From NCBI GenBank assembly GCA_947475415.1, contig CANJLH010000001.1, forward strand, positions 1 to 64,000: DNA of 64,000 nucleotides, in the 5' to 3' direction. The notes beneath the pieces are model-generated. The model was not told the DNA's origin. It searched no databases and saw only the letters and a list, made by a program, of their open reading frames with translations. How positions within the stretch are numbered: position 1 is the stretch's first letter; each line of letters begins with the position of its first letter. Below are positions 6,714-61,159 of this stretch, one piece after another. Both the position numbers and the translations under genes were made by a program. This stretch comes from Caulobacteraceae bacterium (GTDB lineage: Bacteria; Pseudomonadota; Alphaproteobacteria; Caulobacterales; Caulobacteraceae).

Positions 6714-7727
6714 TCACGCGAAGAACGGGATGACGTCGCGGCCCATGGTCTGCATCCAGCTGGCTGGGTCGGCCATGGTGCCGGCGACCGCGATGTTCTC
6801 GACGCCAAGTTCGCGAAGCTCCGTCAGGCGGCGGCGGTAATCGGCCGCACTCCCCACCAGGGCGAAGCGATCCGCCAGATAGTCGCGCAAGCCGAGTTCG
6901 TCCAGCAGGTGGGCATTGGCCATCGGGCGCGTGGCGCCGACGTGGTTTACATTGTCATAGCGCGCGCCCAGTTCGGCGATCCTCGGCCAGATGTCCTCAG
7001 GGATCAGTTTGCCGACCCCTTCATTGAACGAAAGCCGCTTGCCGATGCCGGCGATAGAGGACCGCACCTCGTCGATCGCCGACTGTCGATCTTCCGCCAG
7101 GGCGGCGCGGGCATGCCACCATATCTCGATGTCGGCCGGGTCACGGCCCGCTTCCGCGGCCCCGGCCGCCAACTGGCGACGTGAGTCGGCGATCACTTCC
7201 GGTGTCAGGCCAGTCTCAATGAAGACGCCGTCGGCCACTCGGCCGGCAAGCCGCAGGGCCTTGGGCCCGCCGGCGGACATGAAGATTGGCAGACCCGGCC
7301 GGCGAAAGGCCATCTTCACCGGCGCACCGCGGTAGGTCGCCTCGCCCTTGTCGAGCAAGTCGCGCATGGTTCGGATGTAGTGCTCCATCTGCGCGATCGA
7401 GCCCGGCTTCTGGCCCAGGTTAGTGGCGGCGGTGTCGCCGGAGCCCAGGCCGATATAGGCCCTGCCCGGCGCAAGGGCGTCGATGGTCGCAAGGCCGGAG
7501 GTCATAACCGCCGGGTGGCGAGTGATCGTGTTCGAGATGAACGAGCCCACCCTCGCCCGGTTGGTGTTGACAGCGATGATGGCCAAGGATGCGAAGTGTT
7601 CGCCAAATACGCTGGGGTTGTCACCGGCCATGACCATGGAAAAGCCCGCCGCCTCGGCGGCCTGGGCGTGTTCGCTCAATTGTTCCGGGCGGCGCGGATG
7701 AAATCCGGCGGTGATGGCGAACTTCAT
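6714..7727 (-). CDS. LLM-class F420/FMN-dependent oxidoreductase
   Basis: The 337-residue luciferase-like protein opens MKFAITAGFHPRRPEQL and has AGDNPSVFGEHFASLAII, SFISNTITRHPAVMTSGLAT and APGRAYIGLGSGDTA in the N-terminal half, a pattern typical of the methylenetetrahydromethanopterin-reductase-like branch. SAGGPKALRLAGRVADGVF lies in the middle. The ATG at 7727 has AGGAGCC upstream. It is divergent from the acyl-CoA dehydrogenase operon at 7893. The cofactor (FMN or F420) cannot be decided from sequence alone. Confidence 0.8.
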   Translation of the reverse strand: MKFAITAGFHPRRPEQLSEHAQAAEAAGFSMVMAGDNPSVFGEHFASLAIIAVNTNRARVGSFISNTITRHPAVMTSGLATIDALAPGRAYIGLGSGDTAATNLGQKPGSIAQMEHYIRTMRDLLDKGEATYRGAPVKMAFRRPGLPIFMSAGGPKALRLAGRVADGVFIETGLTPEVIADSRRQLAAGAAEAGRDPADIEIWWHARAALAEDRQSAIDEVRSSIAGIGKRLSFNEGVGKLIPEDIWPRIAELGARYDNVNHVGATRPMANAHLLDELGLRDYLADRFALVGSAADYRRRLTELRELGVENIAVAGTMADPASWMQTMGRDVIPFFA

Positions 7728-7892
7728 CAAAGGCTCCTGCAGTGACCCGCCCAAGACGCCCTTTGCGCTCAGACCTTGGACTGGCGATTGAAACGCAAAG
7801 CCGCGACGCCCGCCATCTTTCTGCGCACCCCCTGGATCAGCAGAGCTTTCGAGGCCATCCTGCAAATAGGGATCAGCGGAGGAGACCTGCTC

Positions 7893-9035
7893 TTGGAATT
7901 CGGATGGTCCGACGAACAAACGGCGACGCGTGAGAGGATCGAGACGCTCCTGGCCACACGCATGCCGCCGGGCTGGGAGGAGGCCTCGGCGCATGGGCCC
8001 GGCTCGGACGAACAGGTGGCCTACGCGCGCCAGTTCTGTCCAATCCTGGGCGCTGAGCGGCTGCTGGTGGGTCACTGGCCGCGGGAATACGGTGGCGACG
8101 AAGCCGGAATCTGGGACCAGTACATCCTGCGCGAGGCGCTCTACGCCATCGGAGAGCCCCGCGGACCCCAGTACATGAATTCAAATTGGATCGGCCCCTC
8201 GATCATGCGCTACGGGACGCCTGAGCAGAAGGCGCATCACCTGCCGATGATCGCCGCGGGAACGGTCTCCTGGTGCCAAGGATTTTCCGAACCCTCGGCC
8301 GGGTCGGACCTGGCGGCGTTACGCACCCGCGCCGAGCGGGTGGGAAACGGCTACCGGATCAATGGATCTAAGATCTGGACCTCTTATTCTCAGGCCGCTG
8401 ACTACTGTTTCCTGCTGGCGCGCACCGGTGAGGGCAAGAAGACCATCACCGTATTCCTGCTGCCGATGACCACTCCAGGCATCCAGGTTAAACCGATCAA
8501 GGCCCTGGTCTGCGACGGCAGCCTGAACGAGGTGTTCTTCACTGACGTCTATGCCGACGACTCCATGCGACTCGGCGAAGAGGACAAGGGCTGGGAGGTG
8601 GTGACCTACGCCCTGGCCCAGGAACGAGTGGGTAGCCCCAAGCACGTCTACGCCATGGCCATGCTGGAAAAGGCGGTCGAGCATCTGCAGAGTCAGGACC
8701 GGTTCGACGACGCCCGCGTGCGGGAGCGGGCGGCTCGGGCCCTGGCGGTCTGCGACGCGGCCCAGAAGCTCAACTATCGCTGCGTCGACAACCGCGCCAA
8801 GGGCAAACCGGACACGGCGGAGAACAATATGGCCCGGGTGCTTCAGTCCAAGGGCGAGCACCTGGTCTCCGACTTCATCGCCGACTTCCTGCCCGAGGTG
8901 ATCGCCGGCGCCGCGCTGGCGCCGCTGAAAGCCTATGTACGCCGCACCGCCTCGGCTGCGATCGGAGCAGGATCTGCGGAGATCCAGCTGAACCTGATCG
9001 CGCGCAACTGGCTTGATCTGCCGCGGGGGGAATGA
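7893..9035 (+). CDS. Acyl-CoA dehydrogenase, large partner of a pair
   Basis: The 380-residue flavoenzyme forms a 2,3-enoyl-CoA. It shows WCQGFSEPSAGSDLAALRT (FAD/substrate loop), NGSKIWTSYSQAADYCFLLAR, and a C-terminal GAGSAEIQLNLIARNWLDLP signature. The start is the TTG at 7893, since GGAGGAG (7878-7884) is 8 bases upstream; an ATG further upstream at 7776 lacks a site and adds non-family residues. The second, shorter dehydrogenase begins 3 bases after its stop. Such adjacent pairs are known to form alpha2beta2 enzymes for steroid or other bulky acyl-CoAs in actinobacteria and proteobacteria; that role here is inferred. Confidence 0.85.
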   Translation: MEFGWSDEQTATRERIETLLATRMPPGWEEASAHGPGSDEQVAYARQFCPILGAERLLVGHWPREYGGDEAGIWDQYILREALYAIGEPRGPQYMNSNWIGPSIMRYGTPEQKAHHLPMIAAGTVSWCQGFSEPSAGSDLAALRTRAERVGNGYRINGSKIWTSYSQAADYCFLLARTGEGKKTITVFLLPMTTPGIQVKPIKALVCDGSLNEVFFTDVYADDSMRLGEEDKGWEVVTYALAQERVGSPKHVYAMAMLEKAVEHLQSQDRFDDARVRERAARALAVCDAAQKLNYRCVDNRAKGKPDTAENNMARVLQSKGEHLVSDFIADFLPEVIAGAALAPLKAYVRRTASAAIGAGSAEIQLNLIARNWLDLPRGE

Positions 9036-9038
9036 CGG

Positions 9039-9977
9039 ATGGATTTCGATCTCAACGCCGATCAGGAGCAGTTGCAGGACGCGGTGGCGCATGCGTCGGC
9101 GAAGTACCGGACCGCACCGATCCATCCCGTGTTCCACGCTTATGACACCGACCTGGACCGTGACCTCGGCCAAGGCGGATTCTTCGACGTTCAGCGCCAG
9201 GATGGCTATGGGCCGCTGGACGCGGCGCTGACCGTGGAGACGCTCAGCCGGCTGCCGCGATGTGCCGAGATCGGCGCGAGCCTGCTGGTCGCGCCGAAAC
9301 TTCTGGCCGATGCCTTACCCCGCCCGATCGCGCTTTTGTCGCGCCCGGACGTTGCTGCGGCCCGATTTCTGGCCCAGGCCAAGACCGCGATCATCGACGC
9401 GGGCGACGACGTATTGATCCTGGACCTGGAAGGCATGGCGCGGGTGGAAACCGAGAGCCTCTATGCCTATCCCTTCGGGGCCTTTGCGAGCCCGCCCGAT
9501 CTGTCACGCGCTCGGCGGCTGGGCGCGACGGCGGTTCCCGTACTTCGCCAGTGGTGGCGCCTAGTCATCGCCATGGAAGCGGTGGGCGCGCTTCAGGCGG
9601 CCTTGGAGTTCACGGTAGAGTACCTTAAAACCCGCCGTCAGTTCGGACGTCCGCTGGGATCCTTCCAGGCGATCCAGCACCGGCTGGCGGGCGGAACCGC
9701 GCTGATCCAGGGCTTGCGCTGGCAGGCGCTGAACGCGGCATGGTCGCAGGATCCTGTCGACGCGGCTCTGGCGGCGACCTTCGCGCAGGAGGCCGCCCAG
9801 TCGGTGGCCTATGACCTGCACCAGTTCTCCGGCGCCCTTGGCCTGACTCTGGAACATCCGCTGCATTTCTGGACCTGGCGATTAAAGGCCCTGCAGGGGG
9901 AGCTGGACGCATTGCACGGCCAGGCGGCGGCGGCGGCCGACCTGGCGTGGCCCCGGCGGCGGGAGTCCGCATCATGA
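9039..9977 (+). CDS. Acyl-CoA dehydrogenase-like, short divergent partner
   Basis: At 312 residues this is shorter than a normal acyl-CoA dehydrogenase (about 380). The N-terminal helices and the middle beta region are condensed. The C-terminal helical domain keeps YLKTRRQFGRPLGSFQAIQH (FAD-contact loop) and HQFSGALGLTLEHPLHFW. The end lacks the usual G-G-T-x-E-I stretch. It follows the larger dehydrogenase by 3 bases and overlaps the next gene by an ATGA, so it is translated as part of the same operon. Likely the non-catalytic or cofactor-sharing subunit of a heteromeric dehydrogenase. Confidence 0.8.
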   Translation: MDFDLNADQEQLQDAVAHASAKYRTAPIHPVFHAYDTDLDRDLGQGGFFDVQRQDGYGPLDAALTVETLSRLPRCAEIGASLLVAPKLLADALPRPIALLSRPDVAAARFLAQAKTAIIDAGDDVLILDLEGMARVETESLYAYPFGAFASPPDLSRARRLGATAVPVLRQWWRLVIAMEAVGALQAALEFTVEYLKTRRQFGRPLGSFQAIQHRLAGGTALIQGLRWQALNAAWSQDPVDAALAATFAQEAAQSVAYDLHQFSGALGLTLEHPLHFWTWRLKALQGELDALHGQAAAAADLAWPRRRESAS

Positions 9978-11560
9978 CCCCGGTGGCGACGGAAAGCAGC
10001 GTCTTGGTTTCATCCTCGGCCTATCTGAACCATACGCCGTTGCGGGAATGGTTCTCGACTGAACTATTGCGCAAGAATGGCAAGGACCGGCGCCCGATCA
10101 GCGACAACACGCCACTCAATCGCGCTCTGGCCGACATCCGCGACAACGCGCTCGTAGATGCGATGTTCGAGCGCGACCGCAAACTCTCACCGGCGCTGGA
10201 TCGCTGGATGACGGAGAAGTTCTACTCCACCTTTACCGTCGAGGACCTGGCCACCTGTCCGCCGGATTCCGTGGGCGGAATCTACTACAACTACATCCAG
10301 GGCGGCATCGAGCTGGATATCGGATTCGCGCTCGACAGCCGCAACTGGTACGAATACGCCATCGTCCGCTACTCGCGGAACCACGACTTCGAGCACATCC
10401 TGACCGGCGGCCCGTTCACCTTTCCGGGCGAATATGCGCCGCTCTTTGCGATGATCACCAACACCCACAATTATATGAGCCCGGACCTGGCGGCCTTCAT
10501 CGGCATGCGCAGCGCCCTGGGTTCACTGCGATTCCTGAGCCGCGCGGTGCTGCACTATCCCGGCAGTGTCGCGGCCTGCCTGGACGCCATCGCCCTGGGG
10601 ATCGAGGTCGGACTGGCGTCAGATCCCATCCGGCTGATCAAGGTCGAGGATGTGCTGCGCCTGCCGCTGGAAGCGGCGCGGGAAAAGCTGGGCATCCGCG
10701 GCGCCTACGACCTGCCGGCAGAGCCCGGCGGGTCGGCCTGGCTTGACCCCTTCGACGCCGAAGCCATCGCGGCGGACTCACACCTGCCCTACATCAAGCG
10801 CGGAATGCGCAAGGTGGCCACCGCGTCCAGCGTGCTGGTCAGCTCATCGAAGTACATGAACGACGTGCGTCTGCGCGACTGGACTGCGACGGCCATGCTG
10901 CGCAAGTGCGGTGCGGACTACCCCGATGCAGAAGAAGAGGCGCGACTTGAAGTCATTCTGGATCCCTTGCGCGACACGGTCGGTTTCAATGCGCGGGCCG
11001 AGGTCGCCCGGCGCGCGAACCCGGTTCTGAACCGGCTGTTGACCGAGCGCCCCACCCTCGACGCCGGCGCCTTCGCCGCGGCTCCTGCGGGCAGCGTCGG
11101 GGCCCGTCTGACTCAGCGGGGCCTGCCGCACTCCCTAGCTATCGGCGACGACGCCTGGAGTTACCTTTCGGCGCGAGCGCAGGCCGCTGAGGCCGTGCTC
11201 GCGGTGCTGTTCGAGGGCCGGGGCGATCCCCTTGAAGAAATCATGCCGGGGTGGGCGATGGCGGCCGCGCTCGCCAACCACCTGGAGGCCGACCTAGCGG
11301 GAGAACTCAACATCGGCCGAGTGCTGTCGCTGCAGCGGTTCATCGCGCGCACGCAACTGCACTACCCGGAGAGCTGGATCGCGATCGCCAGGGCGATGCG
11401 CCAGGGCATCGCCACCGGCAAGGCCGCGCCGCCGCTCTACGCCATGGATTTCACCGCCATCGCGGCCCTGTCACCGGCCGAGGCGCGAGCGCGACTGGGG
11501 ATCGCGGACTGGACAGCGGTGGACACCCGCGCGGCGTCTGCGGCATACGGGGCGGCATGA
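9974..11560 (+). CDS. Tandem Coq4-like protein, one intact and one lost metal site
   Basis: The 528-residue product is an internal duplication of a Coq4-like domain. The first copy (about 1-245) carries the exact Coq4 metal motif H-D-x-x-H-x11-E: His137, Asp138, His141, Glu153. The second copy (about 283-515) restarts with SSVLVSSSKYMNDVRLRDW, nearly the same as SSVLVSSSAYLNHTPLREW at 8-26, and repeats the LHYPxSxxA helix (LHYPGSVA, LHYPESWIA), but the HDxxH stretch has become QAAEA. Coq4 acts in ubiquinone biosynthesis and has a zinc-like site; a role within a lipid-degradation operon is not established. The ATG overlaps the preceding stop (ATGA) and its own stop overlaps the next ATG. Confidence 0.75.
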   Translation: MTPVATESSVLVSSSAYLNHTPLREWFSTELLRKNGKDRRPISDNTPLNRALADIRDNALVDAMFERDRKLSPALDRWMTEKFYSTFTVEDLATCPPDSVGGIYYNYIQGGIELDIGFALDSRNWYEYAIVRYSRNHDFEHILTGGPFTFPGEYAPLFAMITNTHNYMSPDLAAFIGMRSALGSLRFLSRAVLHYPGSVAACLDAIALGIEVGLASDPIRLIKVEDVLRLPLEAAREKLGIRGAYDLPAEPGGSAWLDPFDAEAIAADSHLPYIKRGMRKVATASSVLVSSSKYMNDVRLRDWTATAMLRKCGADYPDAEEEARLEVILDPLRDTVGFNARAEVARRANPVLNRLLTERPTLDAGAFAAAPAGSVGARLTQRGLPHSLAIGDDAWSYLSARAQAAEAVLAVLFEGRGDPLEEIMPGWAMAAALANHLEADLAGELNIGRVLSLQRFIARTQLHYPESWIAIARAMRQGIATGKAAPPLYAMDFTAIAALSPAEARARLGIADWTAVDTRAASAAYGAA

Positions 11561-12633
11561 CCGAACTGTGGATCCAGACCGCGCTCGCCCCAGTGCGGGA
11601 GATCGCGGCTCAGGCCGCGCGTCTGGAGACGGATGGCTGGGGCGGCGTGATGCTGTTCGATTCACAGTGCCTTATCGCCGATCCGTATGTCGCCCTGGCG
11701 CTGGCGGCGGCGGCGACCACGCGAATGGGCCTGGGGATCGGGGTGACCAATCCGATCACCCGCCACGCCGCCGTGACGGCCAGCGCCATCGCCGCGGTGC
11801 AGGAGGCCTCGGGGGGCCGTGCGGTGCTGGGGATCGGCCGCGGCAATTCCTCCCTGGCCTTCCTGGGCGCGCGGCCGGCCTCGCCGGCTTCGTTTGAAGC
11901 CTATGTTGGATTGCTGCAAACCCTGCTCCGCGGAGAAGGGGCGCCGGTGGAACAACTTCTGGCGCGGGGGGACGGGCTGGCGGCGCTGGATCCGCAGAGC
12001 CTGGGCCGGGCGCCTGACGCCGCGCGGCTGGCGTGGCTGGACCGTTCGGCAGCCAAGGTTCCGGTGGAGATCGCCGCCACGGGACCGAAGCTGATCGCCA
12101 TCGCAGCCCGCAAGGCCGACCGGCTGTCCATCTCGGTGGGGGCGGAGGTGGGACGGATCGCCGACACGCTGGCCACCGCCCGCGCCGCCATTGAGGCCGC
12201 TGGCCGCAGCGGACCGTTGCCGGTCACAGCCTATGTGGCCCTGGCTTGCCTGGACGACGCAGCTGCCGCGCGGCGGCTGGTGGCGCCGGACGTGGCCATG
12301 CACGCCCATATCGCCGCCATGAGCCCCGACAACCTGGCCGCGATGAGCGATGAGGAGCGCGCCGTCACCAAGGCCGTCGCCGCCGCCTATGACATGACAC
12401 GCCACGCCCGCCACGGCGCCCAGACAGAGGCGCTGGACGACGCCTTCATCGACGCCCACGCCATCGTGGGGCCGGCGCGGGCCTGCGTGGAACGGCTAAA
12501 GGCGCTGGCGGATCTGGGGCTGGGCCGGATCGTTCTGATGTTGCCACCTCCGCTGAAGGGGGATCCCCGGGCTTCGTACGAGGCCATTGTCGGCGAGGTG
12601 CTGCCGGCGTTTGCGGCGCCCCAGAGCCGCTGA
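11557..12633 (+). CDS. LLM-class flavin-dependent oxidoreductase
   Basis: The 358-residue luciferase-like protein begins MTELWIQTALAPVREIAAQ. It shows RMGLGIGVTNPITRHAAV (strand 3 region), SGGRAVLGIGRGNSSLAFLG (the typical flavin-phosphate loop) and EIAATGPKLIAIAARKADRL, all usual for the methylenetetrahydromethanopterin-reductase-like class. The start overlaps the Coq4-like stop by ATGA, making it the fourth and last gene of the 7893 operon. Its TGA is immediately followed by the TCA stop complement of the convergent sulfotransferase, so the two genes share a TGATCA. Substrate unknown. Confidence 0.8.
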   Translation: MTELWIQTALAPVREIAAQAARLETDGWGGVMLFDSQCLIADPYVALALAAAATTRMGLGIGVTNPITRHAAVTASAIAAVQEASGGRAVLGIGRGNSSLAFLGARPASPASFEAYVGLLQTLLRGEGAPVEQLLARGDGLAALDPQSLGRAPDAARLAWLDRSAAKVPVEIAATGPKLIAIAARKADRLSISVGAEVGRIADTLATARAAIEAAGRSGPLPVTAYVALACLDDAAAARRLVAPDVAMHAHIAAMSPDNLAAMSDEERAVTKAVAAAYDMTRHARHGAQTEALDDAFIDAHAIVGPARACVERLKALADLGLGRIVLMLPPPLKGDPRASYEAIVGEVLPAFAAPQSR

Positions 12634-14881: not shown

Positions 14882-16159
14882 CTAGAACGGTAGGTTGTAG
14901 AGGTGGACAGCGTTGGATTCGAGGACCTTCTTGCGCACCTCGTAGCTGTACCCGCCAAGGGTGTCGGCGAAGTGCTCCTGGACACCGGGGTAGAGAGACA
15001 CCGGGTGCGGGAAATCGGTTTCGATCAGAACCTTGTCGACGCCCACGGTCTCCAGCAGCAGCTTTGGTGCGGACTTCTCAAACCAATAGGTGATCCAGAA
15101 GTTGTCCTTGAAGTACTGCCACGGCCGCTTTTGCAGGGTCTTGGCCTTCTTCGGCAGCATTTCGTCGAACTGGTGCTCCAGGGCCTCGATGCAATAGGGC
15201 ACCCAGCCCATGCCACTCTCGATCATGCCGATCTTCAGCTTCGGATGCCGGTCGAGACGGCCTGAGACCATGAAGTTGCCGATGGTGGCGGCATTGCCCA
15301 GGGAATACATCATCGAGGCGACCGACAGGGTCTGCTCGAAGCCGAAGCCCCTCCAGGTCATACCGCCCGGATCGATGGCCGCGTTGAGATGGAAGTTGAT
15401 CGGCGCGCCGGTCGCCTCGCACATCTCGAACAGCGGTGTCCAATAGTCATCGAGGAATGACGGCACACCGGGATAGCGCTCCGGCAGGTCCGGCAGCACG
15501 AAGCCCTTGATTCCCATGTCCAGGCAGCGCCGGGCCTCGGCCTCCATGGCCGGCTTGTTCCACAGCGGCAGGTGGGCGAGGGTGAACAGGCGCTGGCCGG
15601 ATTCGACCTGCCGCTCGGCGGCGGCGTCGTTGTAGATCTGCAGGATGGTGCGGGCGAGTTCGTCGTCGCCCAGAGCCATCAGCGAACCCGCCTGGGTGAC
15701 GCCGGAGTTCTGGTAGCAGATCTGGGCGTAGATGCCCATTTCGTCCATCGCCTTCAGGCGCGGCTTCAGCTGGTAGGAGCCCGGATGGCCCTGGTCCATG
15801 CTGGGGTAGGAGAGCCGGCCGAGCAGCTTGTTGTTGTCGGCGCCGATAACGCAGCCGCCGCCCCAGGCGCCGAAGTCATTGTCGCCAACATACCAGCGGT
15901 CGCGGCCGCCCACATGGCGGTGATAGGGCACCTTGTCCTTGAATTTGGCCGGCGCGCGCGAGGTGAACAGGTCCGGCGGCTCGGAGAAGTGGGTGTCGCA
16001 ATCGACGATCTTTATGCCGGCCAGACTGGGGTGAATCCCCTGCGAGGCCTTGGCGTAATCCACCTCGCGGATCACCCCGCCTGGGGAGAAACCCTCATCC
16101 AGCCAGTAGCGCTGGGCGTCGTCGGCGATGGCTTCGATATGGCGGTCGTCGTCGGTCAT
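14882..16159 (-). CDS. Amidohydrolase 2-type metal-dependent hydrolase/decarboxylase
   Basis: The 425-residue TIM-barrel protein has KIVDCDTHFSEPPDLF (N-terminal metal region), FHLNAAIDPGGM (central His), IGMIESGMGWVPYCIEALE and VLIETDFPHPVSLYPG (conserved Asp-x-x-His). This arrangement matches the ACMSD-like branch of amidohydrolases, which includes decarboxylases and C-C hydrolases of ring cleavage products. The start at 16159 gives MTDDDRHIEAI; an upstream in-frame start gives an atypical basic leader. The hydrolase and the AttH-like gene upstream are co-oriented with a 73-bp gap. Substrate unknown. Confidence 0.8.
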   Translation of the reverse strand: MTDDDRHIEAIADDAQRYWLDEGFSPGGVIREVDYAKASQGIHPSLAGIKIVDCDTHFSEPPDLFTSRAPAKFKDKVPYHRHVGGRDRWYVGDNDFGAWGGGCVIGADNNKLLGRLSYPSMDQGHPGSYQLKPRLKAMDEMGIYAQICYQNSGVTQAGSLMALGDDELARTILQIYNDAAAERQVESGQRLFTLAHLPLWNKPAMEAEARRCLDMGIKGFVLPDLPERYPGVPSFLDDYWTPLFEMCEATGAPINFHLNAAIDPGGMTWRGFGFEQTLSVASMMYSLGNAATIGNFMVSGRLDRHPKLKIGMIESGMGWVPYCIEALEHQFDEMLPKKAKTLQKRPWQYFKDNFWITYWFEKSAPKLLLETVGVDKVLIETDFPHPVSLYPGVQEHFADTLGGYSYEVRKKVLESNAVHLYNLPF

Positions 16160-18406: not shown

Positions 18407-18483
18407 GCATCGCTTGCCTTGACCGCGTCCGCCGCGCCATTGTGCCGCAAAGGCAGGTAAGCGTCGCTTTGGGGGAGACACGC

Positions 18484-20520
18484 ATGACAGTCACGCGCGC
18501 GACGCTTGCCTTGGCGATGGCGCTTATCACTTTGCCAGGTTGTCAGAAGCCGGCCGGGCCGCCCAGAGACAGCGTCGCCGCATATCCCGCCGACTGGCCG
18601 CAGTTCGGGCGGACAGAGGGATCGCAAGGATTCAGCCCGCTGACCCGGATCAACGCCGGCAACGTCGGCCAATTGGGACTGGCCTGGTCCTTTGATCTTG
18701 AGCCGGGCCACAGCGTCACCGCCCCGGTAGAGGCGAACGGCGTGGTCTATCTGGCCACCCGTCATAGCCTGGTTACGGCGCTCGACGCGGTCACCGGCAA
18801 GCAGCTTTGGCGGTATGACCCACACTCGCCGGAGGTCGCCGGCCTAAAGCTGCGGCGAGCCTGGGGCAGCCGAGGCCTGGCCTACGACGATGGCCGCGTG
18901 TTCGTGGGCACAATGGACGGACGCCTCATCTCGCTGGATGCCAAGACTGGCAAGGAAGCCTGGAGCGTGGCCACCGGTCAGCCCGGCGACGACCGGTTCA
19001 TCACTGGCGCGCCGCGGATTTTCAACGGCAAGGTGCTGATCGGGCACGGCGGCGGCGACGTTGTGCCGACCCGCGGCTACGTCACCTGCTACGACGCCAA
19101 GACCGGCAAGCAGCTTTGGCGGTTCTACACTGTGCCGGGTCCCGGCGCGCCGGAGGACGAGGCCCAGGCGGCCGCGGCCAAGACCTGGCACGGCGAGGCG
19201 TGGAAGGCCGGCGGCGGCGGGGTGGTCTGGAACGCCATGACCTATGATGCGGAAATGAATCGGGTCTACATCGGCACCGGCAACGCCGAGCCCTATGACC
19301 GCAGCCTGCGCAGCGAGGGCAAGGGCGACAATCTCTATACCGCCGCCATCGTCGCCCTGGACGCCGACACCGGCAAGTACGTCTGGCACTATCAGGTCAA
19401 TCCCGGCGAGGAATGGGACTTCGACGCCGACATGGACATGCTGCCGGCGACGCTGAATATCGACGGCAAGCCCCGCAAGGTGCTGATGCAAGCGCCCAAG
19501 AACGGATTCTTCTATGTGCTCGACCGGGAAACCGGAAAGCCGATCTCCGCCGAGCCCTTCGCCACGGTCAACTGGGCGACCAAGATCGATCTAGTCACCG
19601 GCCGCCCTGTGGAAGTCGACGCCGCCCGCTTCCATGGCAAGGCCGCCTTCCTGATGCGGCCCACCCCCACCGGAGCGCACAACTGGCTTCCCATGGCGTT
19701 CAGCCCAAAGTCAGGCCTGGTCTACATCCCGGTCAGCGAGCGTGGCGTGAAATGGGCCGACCCATTCCCCGACTACCTACCTAGGCTCCCGGAGGGTGAT
19801 CACAGCTACCTGAAGGCCTGGGATCCGATCCGGCAGAAGGCCGTCTGGCAAGTTGAGGCCGCAGGCCCCTTCCCGGGCGGGGCGATCGCCACGGCCGGCG
19901 ACCTGGTGTTCCAGGGCCAGATGGACCGGTCCTTCAACGCCTTCGCGGCGGCGGACGGCAAGAAGCTCTGGTCCTTTGACGCCCGCGCGCCGGCCATCGC
20001 ACCGCCGATCACCTATGAGGTGAAGGGCGTCCAATACGTCACCGTCATCACTGGGTTCGGCGCCAGCGCCAGCCTGTTCCTGCAGCCAGAACAGCGCATC
20101 ACCAACCTGGATTATCGGGCCATGCCCCGGCGGGTTTTGACTTTCGCACTCGGCGGCAAGGCCACTCTGCCGCCGGCCCCGGCGGCTCCGGCCCAGGTCG
20201 CGGCTCCGGATCCGGACTTCAAGCCCGACGCGGCGCGAATGAGCCGCGGAGCCGGCGCCTTCGCCGCGAACTGCATCTTGTGTCACGGCATAAACGTCGT
20301 CGCCGCCGGCGCCGCGCCCGACCTGCGCTACTCGCCGGCCGTAACCGCTATGGAGAACTTCGCCTCCGTCGTGCGCGACGGCGCGCTGCTGGCGCGGGGG
20401 ATGCCTAGGTTCGACGAACTCACCGCGGATCAGACTGAGGACATCCGCTTTTACGTCCGCGCCCGAGCCCGGGAATCCGCGGACGTTCGCCACGCCGGCG
20501 TCAAGCCGTCAGGAGGATAA
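18484..20520 (+). CDS. PQQ-dependent alcohol dehydrogenase lipoprotein with C-terminal cytochrome c
   Basis: The 678-residue quinohaemoprotein has a lipoprotein signal with lipobox LPGC (Cys20), so it should be anchored at the periplasmic face. The beta-propeller shows repeated W motifs (TGKQLWRYDP, TGKEAWSVATG, TGKQLWRFYT, TGKYVWHYQ) and NPGEEWDFDA with the likely catalytic Asp. A haem c motif CILCH (597-601) and MPRF (Met640, likely axial ligand) close the protein. The vicinal Cys-Cys pair usual in this family is absent: the matching segment reads RAWGSRGLAYDDG (125-137). It probably oxidises an alcohol and passes electrons to a periplasmic cytochrome. The next gene starts 2 bases after its stop. 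Confidence 0.85.
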   Translation: MTVTRATLALAMALITLPGCQKPAGPPRDSVAAYPADWPQFGRTEGSQGFSPLTRINAGNVGQLGLAWSFDLEPGHSVTAPVEANGVVYLATRHSLVTALDAVTGKQLWRYDPHSPEVAGLKLRRAWGSRGLAYDDGRVFVGTMDGRLISLDAKTGKEAWSVATGQPGDDRFITGAPRIFNGKVLIGHGGGDVVPTRGYVTCYDAKTGKQLWRFYTVPGPGAPEDEAQAAAAKTWHGEAWKAGGGGVVWNAMTYDAEMNRVYIGTGNAEPYDRSLRSEGKGDNLYTAAIVALDADTGKYVWHYQVNPGEEWDFDADMDMLPATLNIDGKPRKVLMQAPKNGFFYVLDRETGKPISAEPFATVNWATKIDLVTGRPVEVDAARFHGKAAFLMRPTPTGAHNWLPMAFSPKSGLVYIPVSERGVKWADPFPDYLPRLPEGDHSYLKAWDPIRQKAVWQVEAAGPFPGGAIATAGDLVFQGQMDRSFNAFAAADGKKLWSFDARAPAIAPPITYEVKGVQYVTVITGFGASASLFLQPEQRITNLDYRAMPRRVLTFALGGKATLPPAPAAPAQVAAPDPDFKPDAARMSRGAGAFAANCILCHGINVVAAGAAPDLRYSPAVTAMENFASVVRDGALLARGMPRFDELTADQTEDIRFYVRARARESADVRHAGVKPSGG

Positions 20521-31325: not shown

Positions 31326-33851
31326 TCAGAACGCCTTCGCGAAGCCCAGGGTAATTCGGCCCGAAGCATCTCGATCCGTGTCGCGGGCCTCCAGGGAGGC
31401 GCGCCAGCTGAACCCGGCGGCCTCCCCTTCGAGGGCGATCTGGCCCCCCACGAAATCCCTGTCATCAGTGGGCAGGGCCACTGGAGCGGCCGACCCGCTC
31501 ACCGCGGCCAAGGCCAGGATCGGATTGCGCGGGCCGCCTTCGCTGACCCAGGTATAGCCGACCCGGGCGGTGGGACGGAACGAGCCGCCGCCGCCGAAGG
31601 TCGCCTCCAGGCCCAGGGTGCTTTCGGTGCGGCTATAGTCGGTGTCGGGCGCAATGCCGTTGCCGATAGCCGCCCCATTTTCGGTGAAGGAATCCAGGTT
31701 CACTCGCGCGTGCAGCACGTCGGCATAGGGTCCGGCTCGCGCAGGTCCCAGATCCGCCGCATAACCGAACTTAACGTTTGCGGTCAGTACGTTCCCAGAG
31801 GGGCGGGCTTGCGCGGAAAGCCCATACGAAGCCGGGCGGCGCGTCTTCAATTTGAGGTTGGCTAGCCCCGCCGCACCCTGGGCGTAAAAGCCGGACTTGT
31901 CGAACAGGCCCACATAGGCCCCGGCGGCGTAGCTGTGGCCGCTAATGTCGAAATCCGCGCTGCTGTCGCCGTCGATCTTTTGGCCCGAAAGGACGATGCC
32001 GTATTGTAGAAGTTCCGAGCCTCGCTCGATCCCCACCACCAGGGACCCTGCGTCCACGGCGTCGCCGAGACTGGTCCCGCCAACCCGGCCGAAACCGCCT
32101 TGGCCCCAGCCCCGCACGCCCATTGTGTCCAAGCCTGCGGCCCGCGCCCGGCGCACAGCGTCGAGATTGCCCTGGGCCGCCAATGCTGGCTCCGCCCCGA
32201 ACCGGGCTCCCACCTGATGCGCGCCGGCCAAAACCACGGCGCCGGTGGTCCGCAGATAGGCGAGCGCCTGCGGATCGACATAGGTGGGCAGGGTCAGGCG
32301 ATAGATCAGCACCACATTGTCGTTGTCGCCACTGCCTGCCGTGGGACTGTTGAGCGCGGTGTTGGCGTTTTGCACGCCCGCCGCATCCACGTCGCTGGAC
32401 ACGAAGTCATTGTCATTGCCGACCAGGAGGAAATAATCGTTGGGCTTGTCCTCTTCCAGCGTCGGCGCCAGCGCCATCGCCTCCCATTTTTCCGAGAGCG
32501 AAAACTGCGTGCTGGGGTTGGTGATGGTGTTGATGCCAAACTTTCCCAGCTGAGTGGGGTTTAGCAAATTGACCAGTTCGACCTGCTGCACCGGCGTTAT
32601 CCCCGCCACCAGCGCGCCGGAGCCGTTGGCCACTGCGCTGGTAGAAATCGGCGTGACGCCGTTGGAAAACGCCGTGCCGGCGATGCTGGTGGCGCCTGTG
32701 GTGTCTACCAACAGGATGCTCTTGAAGGCGATGGCGTTGGAGTTGCCATTGGTGCCGCGGCCGTTGCCGTCCCGCGAGAGCACAAGGAACTGGGTGTTGT
32801 TGAGCGCCAGGACTTCCGACTGGGCCGCCGTGGTCCCAGGCGCGCCAATCCCCGTGGCGCTGTTGTTGAAAACCGGCAGCTGCAGCACATATTCAGCCAA
32901 CGGCGCCGTCGGCGTCCGACTAGCGGAGATGTCATAGACCAGCACACGGGTGTTGTTGCGCCGCACCGCCACATTGGTCGGATTGTCCTGCAATGCGGCG
33001 CTCTGCAGCACCGCGAACAGCCGTGTCCCGTCGGGCGAGACCGAGACACCTTCCATGCCCTGGTTCGACCGTCGCCCCGTGGTGCCCGGGACCAGCGGCG
33101 CGTCATTGGTTCCGTTGAAGTTCACAGCGCCGTTGACCCGCGGGATGATGTCCGGATTGGCCTGGATCGCCCCGATCTGTGCGCCATTGGCGTCGAAGTA
33201 ATAGATCGCTGCCCCATACTCATCGCCTACATAGAAGCTGCCGTCGTTCAGAAACGTGACGGCCTCGGCGTCCATAGCGATCTTCCCGGCGCCGGGGTCA
33301 CCGGCGGGTGGCGTTGGGTAGACAATGCCGTTCCGGGTGACCGTGGTCCCCTGAGGATCGCGTCCGGTGAACAGCTGCCCGGTGGAATCCCGCAAAAGCA
33401 TGCCCCCGGCCTGCACCAGCTGCATCTGTTGTGTGGTCGCCGGCACTGCGGCGGTTCCCGTGTAAGGATTGAGCGTAAGTGTGAACCTATTCAGCCGGGC
33501 GGCATAGTTGGTTGTGGTCAGGCCCCCCACATTGTTCGGACCCCGGTCAGGCAAGGTGTAGAGGCTGGCGGTGTAGCCGCCCGATGACCGACGCCAGGTC
33601 TTCAGGTCGAGCGCCATGCCGGAGAACGAGCCCAGGGTCTCGCCATTGAAATCATGCAGCGTGGCGCTTAGCCGGGCCGTGCCGACGAGACCCTGGTTAA
33701 TGAAAGTCGCGCCGCCCACGGTGGCGGATGTCGAACCTGTAGCCGTTGTGACATTTGGTGAACTGAACCCGATGGAATCGGCCCTGGCGACACCGGCGGC
33801 GACAAGCGCCAATGCTGACACTGCGGCCAACACTCCCGTGCGAGTTATCAT
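31326..33851 (-). CDS. Phytase-like esterase passenger with autotransporter beta-domain
   Basis: The 841-residue product has a signal peptide (MITRTGVLAAVSALALVAAG followed by VARA), then a phytase-like esterase domain with LDLKTWRRSSGG, TLPDRGPNNVG, KIAMDAEAVTFLNDGSFYVGDEYGAAIYYF, GMEGVSVSPDG and EKWEAMALAPTLEEDKPNDYFLLVGNDNDF. From about residue 560 the sequence turns into an outer-membrane beta-barrel ending in GFAKAF with terminal Phe. It is expected to be displayed at the cell surface. Start: ATG at 33851 with GGGGAAA upstream; the TTG at 33863 is also possible. It could hydrolyse a phosphate or ester substrate outside the cell. Confidence 0.75.
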   Translation of the reverse strand: MITRTGVLAAVSALALVAAGVARADSIGFSSPNVTTATGSTSATVGGATFINQGLVGTARLSATLHDFNGETLGSFSGMALDLKTWRRSSGGYTASLYTLPDRGPNNVGGLTTTNYAARLNRFTLTLNPYTGTAAVPATTQQMQLVQAGGMLLRDSTGQLFTGRDPQGTTVTRNGIVYPTPPAGDPGAGKIAMDAEAVTFLNDGSFYVGDEYGAAIYYFDANGAQIGAIQANPDIIPRVNGAVNFNGTNDAPLVPGTTGRRSNQGMEGVSVSPDGTRLFAVLQSAALQDNPTNVAVRRNNTRVLVYDISASRTPTAPLAEYVLQLPVFNNSATGIGAPGTTAAQSEVLALNNTQFLVLSRDGNGRGTNGNSNAIAFKSILLVDTTGATSIAGTAFSNGVTPISTSAVANGSGALVAGITPVQQVELVNLLNPTQLGKFGINTITNPSTQFSLSEKWEAMALAPTLEEDKPNDYFLLVGNDNDFVSSDVDAAGVQNANTALNSPTAGSGDNDNVVLIYRLTLPTYVDPQALAYLRTTGAVVLAGAHQVGARFGAEPALAAQGNLDAVRRARAAGLDTMGVRGWGQGGFGRVGGTSLGDAVDAGSLVVGIERGSELLQYGIVLSGQKIDGDSSADFDISGHSYAAGAYVGLFDKSGFYAQGAAGLANLKLKTRRPASYGLSAQARPSGNVLTANVKFGYAADLGPARAGPYADVLHARVNLDSFTENGAAIGNGIAPDTDYSRTESTLGLEATFGGGGSFRPTARVGYTWVSEGGPRNPILALAAVSGSAAPVALPTDDRDFVGGQIALEGEAAGFSWRASLEARDTDRDASGRITLGFAKAF

Positions 33852-33910
33852 TAATTTCCCCAATCCTTTTCGCTCAGGATCCGGGTAGCGAAGGATTGTG
33901 ACGGTTCGGA

Positions 33911-60221: not shown

Positions 60222-61103
60222 TCACCCCAGCCCAATGGACTTGGCGTAGCGCTCCATCACCGCGAAACCCTCATAGCCCACGCTGCCGACCTTGGCGCCG
60301 TCCCAGGGGGTGATAACGGCCCGGTGACAGCCCTGCTCGACCATCTCCTCCAGTTCCGCCCGGGTCGCTGTGCCGAGCGTAATGGTGCCGAATTCGAACG
60401 GCTCGTCGGCCCGGCCAGCATCGATTAGGTGCTGCTTGATGGCAGGGATGGAGGAGGCGGGCCCATGCCAGCCGTTGCCCAGATAGCCGGCGCGGCGCTC
60501 CGCAGGGGGCGTGCCGCCGCCGATGTGGATCGGGATCGGTTTCTGCACCGGCTTGGGCTGAAAGCCCATGGGACCGAAGTTGTAGAAGTCGCCGTGAAAC
60601 TCCGGATACTCCTGCTCGAAACAGACGCGCATGGCCCGGATGGTTTCGTCCATCTTGCGGCCGCGCTTTTTGAACTCATTGCCGGTGAAGGCGTATTCCT
60701 TCTCGCTCCAGCCCAGGCCCACCGCCAGATCCAGCCGCCCGCCCGACAGCACGTCCAGAGAGGCCACCATCTTGGCCGCCAGCACCGCGTCGCGCAGGGG
60801 CAGCATGTAGATGCCGACCCCAAGCCGCACCTTCTTGGTGGCCCCGGCGAAGGCGGCCAGCGCGATCAGGGGATCGAGAAAGCCGGAGTCCGGGGTGAAG
60901 TCCACCAGGTCGGCCGTACCCGCGGCCCCGGCCGCGAGCACGCGGGGATATTCGCGCCACCAGTCGGGGGAGTTGTCGAGGCAGATGTGCTCTCCCGACC
61001 ACACCGCGTCGAAGCCCAGTTGCTCGCACAACTGGGCGCACTCCACCTGCAATTCCGGTTTCACCCAGACGATGTTGACGCCCATCTTCAGCGGTGCAGC
61101 CAT
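60222..61103 (-). CDS. LLM-class F420-dependent-type oxidoreductase
   Basis: The 293-residue luciferase-like protein begins MAAPLKMGVNIVWVKPELQV and has FDAVWSGEHICL, RLGVGIYMLPLRDAVLAAKM, LSGGRLDLAVGLGWSEKEY and IPIHIGGGTPPAERRAGYL. This pattern is close to actinobacterial F420-dependent LLM proteins (Rv2161c-like), so F420 is possible but not provable here. The ATG at 61103 is preceded by a GGGAG site. The double-hotdog dehydratase at 61160 lies upstream on the same strand 56 bases away, so they are likely co-transcribed. Confidence 0.8.
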   Translation of the reverse strand: MAAPLKMGVNIVWVKPELQVECAQLCEQLGFDAVWSGEHICLDNSPDWWREYPRVLAAGAAGTADLVDFTPDSGFLDPLIALAAFAGATKKVRLGVGIYMLPLRDAVLAAKMVASLDVLSGGRLDLAVGLGWSEKEYAFTGNEFKKRGRKMDETIRAMRVCFEQEYPEFHGDFYNFGPMGFQPKPVQKPIPIHIGGGTPPAERRAGYLGNGWHGPASSIPAIKQHLIDAGRADEPFEFGTITLGTATRAELEEMVEQGCHRAVITPWDGAKVGSVGYEGFAVMERYAKSIGLG

Positions 61104-61159
61104 GGTCTCACTCCCTGATTGACGCGGCGCCTGGCGACCCGCGCTGTTGTGCACTCTGT

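Follow-up and report, generated by a model that had tools for sequence, protein, structure and literature searches.

It was only recently that COQ4 was given an enzymatic function, in what PMC7615680 reports on the ancestral animal protein: with Zn2+, this protein decarboxylates the quinone precursor at C1, and no product was obtained from double mutants in its HD-xx-H-x11-E motif. A Coq4-named gene next to an LLM (luciferase-like) gene has also been listed already; in a table of PMC11925935, MAB_0529c of Mycobacterium abscessus is given as Coq4, in the group MAB_0525c-MAB_0529c, beside genes for an LLM-type monooxygenase, an epoxide hydrolase and an alcohol dehydrogenase. In the literature on the Coq4 family, catabolism and operons, searched largely outside subscription journals, we found no study of a catabolic or a tandem Coq4. 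Steroid catabolism involves paired acyl-CoA dehydrogenases of the IpdE1/IpdE2 type.

The DNA analysed here is a 64 kb stretch of a Caulobacteraceae genome (hereafter the window), in which a sequence-only reading had proposed a tandem Coq4-like protein encoded in an operon with paired acyl-CoA dehydrogenases and an LLM enzyme. The open reading frame and both of its ATGA overlaps lie where that reading had placed them, and the operon partners are present (Table 1). At 9974-9977 the stop codon of the small dehydrogenase gene overlaps the start of the tandem gene, and at 11557-11560 the stop codon of the tandem gene overlaps an ATG start in the LLM frame, which as an open frame begins earlier, with a GTG at 11251. 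Beyond the LLM gene, on the opposite strand, are genes for a sulfotransferase, an epimerase and an Amidohydro_2 protein, and a gene with a weak DUF7064 match (17.0 bits, below its cut-off). Elsewhere in the window we found a CoA ligase, thiolases, SDRs, a TonB-type receptor, a P450 and further LLM genes, and we infer that the window is a catabolic island for hydrophobic compounds. The LLM (Bac_luciferase) genes number four in all (586-1773, 6714-8075, 11557-12633 and 60222-61154). The window also encodes, at 31326-33863 on the minus strand, an 845-residue protein with a Phytase-like esterase domain and an autotransporter beta-domain.

Table 1. Positions of the tandem Coq4-like gene, its parts and its operon neighbours in the window.
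Feature	Position	Strand	Description
Acyl-CoA dehydrogenase, large pair member	7776-9035	+	three dehydrogenase domains; Pfam PF02770, PF00441, PF02771
Acyl-CoA dehydrogenase, small pair member	9039-9977	+	Pfam PF00441, PF08028; C-terminal domain models only
Tandem Coq4-like gene	9974-11560	+	ORF, 528 residues, two homologous halves
N half, residues 1-268	9974-10777	+	Coq4-like domain, metal motif intact, without PYLxRG leader
Metal motif His137-Asp138-x-x-His141-x11-Glu153	10382-10432	+	from sequence; ligand columns invariant in 96 relatives
C half, residues 269-528	10778-11557	+	Coq4-like domain without metal site; PYLxRG-like leader LPYIKRG
Degenerate site Glu406, Ala407, Ala410, Glu422 (for H, D, H, E)	11189-11239	+	from family alignment
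LLM (luciferase-like) oxidoreductase	11557-12633	+	Pfam PF00296, 133.9 bits

The two halves of the protein are homologous to one another (32% identity, E 1e-22 by blastp), and the repeats on which the tandem had first been recognised are there as described, with SSVLVSSS at residues 8 and 285 and LHYP at residues 193 and 462. With general models a Coq4 match was obtained for one half only. When the N half was cut out it scored 23.3 bits with Pfam PF05019 (Coq4), a marginal match given the cut-off of 22.9, while the C half gave no match at E 1. The whole protein reached 21.7 bits, under the cut-off, and a genome search with PF05019 counted the place in the window as above it, at a score of 23.5 that includes neighbours. 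NCBIfam likewise gave no match on the C half, and phmmer with the whole protein gave none among solved structures; a profile and fold comparison was therefore needed. A subfamily profile matched the window protein over the domain together with its SSVLVSSS-type leader, scoring 389 bits on the N half, which had been included in building the profile, and 170 bits on the C half, which had not.

Structures were predicted with AlphaFold2 using alignments that held 96 of the 97 single-domain copies, the copy at the edge of locus L056 being excluded. The best of five full-length models had a mean pLDDT of 80.9 and a pTM of 0.83 (mean pLDDT of the five 80.9, 76.5, 76.2, 67.6 and 63.7), with residues 268-291, at the start of the C half, below 50. 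The C half alone gave a pLDDT of 89.3 and a pTM of 0.86, in a model that is biased towards the Coq4 fold since it was built from an alignment of Coq4-like relatives. With both models the only solved structures found by Foldseek at E 0.001 or better were 6E12 (Nostoc Alr8543) and 3MSQ (entitled a putative ubiquinone biosynthesis protein of Nostoc punctiforme), which we take to be members of Pfam Coq4. VIA-align superposed the N half, taken from the whole-chain model, on 6E12_B with Z 19.9 (rmsd 2.7 over 211 residues) and the C half alone with Z 15.2 (rmsd 3.6 over 203 residues), the next unrelated row for the C half being at Z 5.8. The twelve predicted helices of the C half follow the same order as those of the N half, and the 3MSQ and 6E12 sequences carry HDxxHx11E where the family profile aligns with them (E 2.5e-24 and 9.7e-13, respectively). 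We conclude that both halves are predicted to have the Coq4 fold, that of 6E12 and 3MSQ.

The N half contains the exact H-D-x-x-H-x11-E motif, running from His137 to Glu153 as had been claimed, and the same exact motif is present in 109 of the 110 ORFs that match the family profile; the lone exception is a 117-residue fragment cut at the end of its locus. For the C half it had been stated that HDxxH has become QAAEA. The loss of the site stands; QAAEA (residues 403-407) is, however, not the aligned motif, as the family alignment puts Glu406, Ala407 and Ala410 in the first three ligand columns, the fourth ligand being kept as Glu422. In an alignment of the C half with 96 single-domain relatives, 28 columns show a conservation of 95% or more; 21 of these are retained in the C half, and five of the seven that it has lost lie within the metal motif, from residue 406 to residue 421. 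Fourteen columns are invariant in the 96 relatives; the C half keeps 11, and the three it has lost are exactly H, D and H. Of the 364 ways of losing three columns from 14 at random, 4 would confine the losses to the four metal-ligand columns. In the N half 26 of the 28 columns are retained; it lacks one proline (Arg40 in its place) and the tyrosine of PYLxRG, the latter because the N half starts later; the leader absent from the N half has its like at the junction, as LPYIKRG of the C half. As judged from the alignment, the asymmetry between a putatively live and a putatively dead site is real and specific.

It might be argued that the site in the C half has been changed and not lost, with Glu406, Glu414, Glu421 and Glu422 forming a carboxylate-rich cluster that would hold another metal or serve an acid-base role. 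The first histidine has indeed become a glutamate, the fourth ligand is retained, and two glycines conserved in the motif are replaced by glutamate at residues 414 and 421; however, the equivalents of Asp138 and His141 are both alanine, and glutamate is common on helix surfaces, and we regard a repurposed site as distinctly unlikely.

To see how widespread the tandem form is, we counted two domains in one ORF in only one of the 110 profile-matching ORFs, that of the window; these 110 include the window itself, three distant Coq4 matches (L014, L017 and L018) and copies fetched twice (L015 is L101, and L016 is L098). In the 390 genomes of the family, searched with at most six candidates scored per genome, the subfamily profile exceeded 140 bits in six, and two domains in one frame were found in the window genome alone. 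The earlier reading had proposed a survey of whether the duplication always sits beside the two dehydrogenases; among the 110 ORFs and the 390 genomes we found the duplication neither beside any other dehydrogenase pair nor anywhere else. To date one genome alone has yielded the fusion.

Repeats within the gene at the DNA level are limited to four short ones, each in two copies of 16-27 nt and none of them in register with the halves, indicating that the duplication or fusion is old. A tree placed the two halves apart, although long branches are involved and a constraint joining them was not rejected (p-AU 0.42). The C half scored 141.6 bits against a single-domain paralogue from the same genome and 84.5 bits against its own N half; these scores lean towards a fusion of separate genes, though divergence of both halves may explain them. 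The branch leading to the C half is very long, at 4.4-4.8 changes per column, which fits weak constraint as well as it fits a new role. Could the C half then be no more than a domain left over from a duplication or fusion and now in decay, kept only by its open frame and possibly by translational coupling to the downstream gene? Its long branch and unusual residue make-up, the occurrence of the fusion in a single genome, and a stretch from the GSVG/DSVG motif to the first ligand position that is six residues shorter than in the N half would all agree with decay. Against this, the 780 nt are open and their GC content at the three codon positions is that of normal coding DNA (0.71/0.54/0.83, with 0.62/0.46/0.83 for the N half), the C half alone folds confidently in prediction, and the 21 conserved columns it keeps, together with the concentration of its losses in the metal motif, also speak against decay. 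We therefore consider a remnant unlikely.

The single-domain relatives were collected by a contig scan of genomes of 84,980 species with two peptide patterns, which returned 155 relatives, and the best 80 loci were fetched. The matches among these best 80 of 155 are about 770-955 nt long and single-domain; they come mostly from sphingomonads, with some from Caulobacteraceae, and certain of the strain names (Chol11, estronivorans, estronivorus) hint at growth on steroids. Eighteen plasmid records of Sphingobium and Novosphingobium also match, and in seven annotated plasmid regions genes of catabolic type surround most of the single-domain copies. Context was counted for the 91 of 110 copies with at least 4 kb on both sides, or for the 71 left after removal of those at least 90% identical, with neighbours called by similarity to reference proteins chosen from the window and plasmid records, so that other neighbours may be missed. 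Within 400 nt, 45 of the 71 non-redundant copies have an AtuA or amidohydrolase gene (AtuA 21, amidohydrolase 24, neither 26); for two members Pfam confirmed the amidohydrolase to be Amidohydro_3. Adjacent to the window gene there is no AtuA and no Amidohydro_3-type gene, neighbours that are common but not universal among the relatives. No match to AtuA was found in 14 control genomes; AtuA is thus uncommon, and its pairing with Coq4-like genes is unlikely to be background.

Some further arrangements were seen at these loci. For 15 of the 71 non-redundant copies (L019, L037, L041, L055, L059, L063, L102, L105 and others) the gene directly upstream of the single-domain Coq4-like gene, and on its strand, is AtuA, a member of the acyclic terpene utilisation family, and in the literature on the Coq4 family, AtuA, sphingomonads, steroid degradation and operons we found no paper on this pairing. 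A Thauera MAG also carries a Coq4-like gene with AtuA upstream (L022, 9986-10834); this is the only tree row labelled outside Alphaproteobacteria (Zoogloeaceae), and reflects either transfer or contamination. At L019 two divergent Coq4-like genes with intact motifs (14989-15807 and 18467-19345) flank a gene for a TonB-dependent receptor, the arrangement adjoining a gene annotated as D-aminoacylase, and this arrangement is also present at L021, L059, L063, L064, L069, L070 and L072.

A pair of large and small dehydrogenase genes is found within 3 kb in 4 of the 91 copies (the window, L013, L023 and L073) and within 10 kb in 14. At L023 the Coq4-like gene faces the pair and does not follow it, and in a genome of the same genus (G401) a Coq4-like gene lies behind the pair, its contig running out some 109 residues into the gene. 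Identity to the dehydrogenases of the window is 34-46% for those of L013, L023 and G401. In the tree the N half of the window protein groups weakly with L013 and L023 (SH-aLRT 92; in a second tree bootstrap 69 and SH-aLRT 90), and the pairing with dehydrogenases may therefore mark that sub-branch.

The genome that contains the window has three Coq4 matches: the window gene, a single-domain paralogue on contig C1 at 151 kb (L013), and a better-scoring match of 59 bits at C7:38404-38985. The L013 paralogue closes a same-strand run of Amidohydro_2, large dehydrogenase, small dehydrogenase and Coq4-like genes. Given the separate and better Coq4 at C7, it is unnecessary to ascribe a ubiquinone-synthesis role to the window gene. 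That the window protein is an ordinary ubiquinone-synthesis Coq4, merely duplicated, would be in keeping with its distant homology and shared metal motif; nevertheless the C7 gene, the dehydrogenase and LLM genes as operon partners and the many relatives in clusters of catabolic type make this very improbable.

Taken together, we favour, on balance, a catabolic Coq4-like metalloenzyme half with an attached pseudoenzyme half, working with the dehydrogenases and the LLM oxidoreductase of its operon. The gene product would be a covalently joined, asymmetric pair of Coq4 folds, presumably packed against each other, derived from a little-studied Coq4 branch found in catabolic clusters. In this pair the N half would be the enzyme, its HD-xx-H-x11-E motif holding a metal, most likely the Zn2+ that animal COQ4 is reported to use; with the motif unchanged, the reaction is most likely of a metal-dependent decarboxylase type, and its target would be a carboxylate on a bulky hydrophobic intermediate. 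In the manner of pseudoenzymes, the C half keeps its scaffold but is short of three of the four ligands, and it may serve as a built-in partner that replaces a second identical subunit and assists in assembly or in shaping the pocket. The Coq4-like protein would then act in series with the dehydrogenase pair and the LLM enzyme of the operon.

An explanation that would not need to invoke catalysis by either half is that the protein is a scaffold or carrier, binding a hydrophobic intermediate for the dehydrogenases. According to its title, 6E12 was solved with oleic acid and magnesium, and in an older view, expressed in PMC8969065, COQ4 is a scaffold that binds lipids and proteins and whose specific function is unknown. 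The invariance of all four metal-motif residues in the 96 relatives and the N half suggests chemistry, however, and decarboxylase activity is what PMC7615680 describes for ancestral animal COQ4; we consider a purely binding role improbable. Returning to the metalloenzyme-pseudoenzyme pair, we extend it only tentatively to the branch as a whole, which may have turned into a family of catabolic metalloenzymes, probably decarboxylases of bulky CoA- or acid-type intermediates, that would work with AtuA, amidohydrolase or paired acyl-CoA dehydrogenase genes. On this wider reading a homo-oligomer would have become a single chain in the window protein, enzyme and pseudoenzyme in one, with the dead half controlling assembly, the substrate pocket or the coupling to the dehydrogenases.

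The novelty of the locus is smaller than was first claimed. A catabolic setting had been thought special to the fused copy, whereas 45 of 71 single-domain copies lie near AtuA or amidohydrolase genes and L013 lies behind a dehydrogenase pair; the catabolic-type setting is shared by many single-domain relatives, and it is these relatives that offer the broader lead. Any new role would be one of the whole sub-branch, and the asymmetry is a feature of this one protein. Bacterial relatives that carry the Coq4 metal motif in degradation-type clusters are open to genetic work, in which the chemistry of the fold can be probed, and with one live and one dead half in a single chain the fused protein is itself a natural test case for the need of Coq4 for a partner subunit.

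Compared with described Coq4 proteins of PF05019 (animal COQ4, 6E12 and 3MSQ), the window protein shares the predicted fold in both halves and HD-xx-H-x11-E in its N half; it differs in having two domains per chain, the second without H, D and H, and in its SSVLVSSS leader, its operon with a dehydrogenase pair and LLM gene, and its marginal Pfam score. Closer to it are SARO_RS19015 and SARO_RS19025 on plasmid pNL2 of Novosphingobium aromaticivorans, named 'Coq4 family proteins' and respectively 42% and 28% identical to the N half, which match the same subfamily profile and have an SSVLVSSS-like leader and catabolic-type neighbours. Unlike the window gene, both are single-domain with the motif intact and do not overlap a dehydrogenase gene, and SARO_RS19015 is directly behind AtuA. 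The L013 paralogue is 45% identical to the N half and, like the window gene, is immediately preceded on its strand by a large/small acyl-CoA dehydrogenase pair, but it is single-domain with an intact site, and the next gene is on the opposite strand and matches Meth_synt_2, not LLM. The likeness of MAB_0529c to the tandem gene is that a Coq4-named gene adjoins an LLM gene (PMC11925935). Mycobacteria use menaquinone and are not known to use ubiquinone, so MAB_0529c may be another non-ubiquinone Coq4. As to the dehydrogenases, the best NCBIfam match of the small member is IpdE2, at only 77.8 bits and far under the cut-off of 450, but the make-up of the IpdE1/IpdE2 type, a large member with all domains and a small member with C-terminal domain matches only, is also that of the pair in the window.
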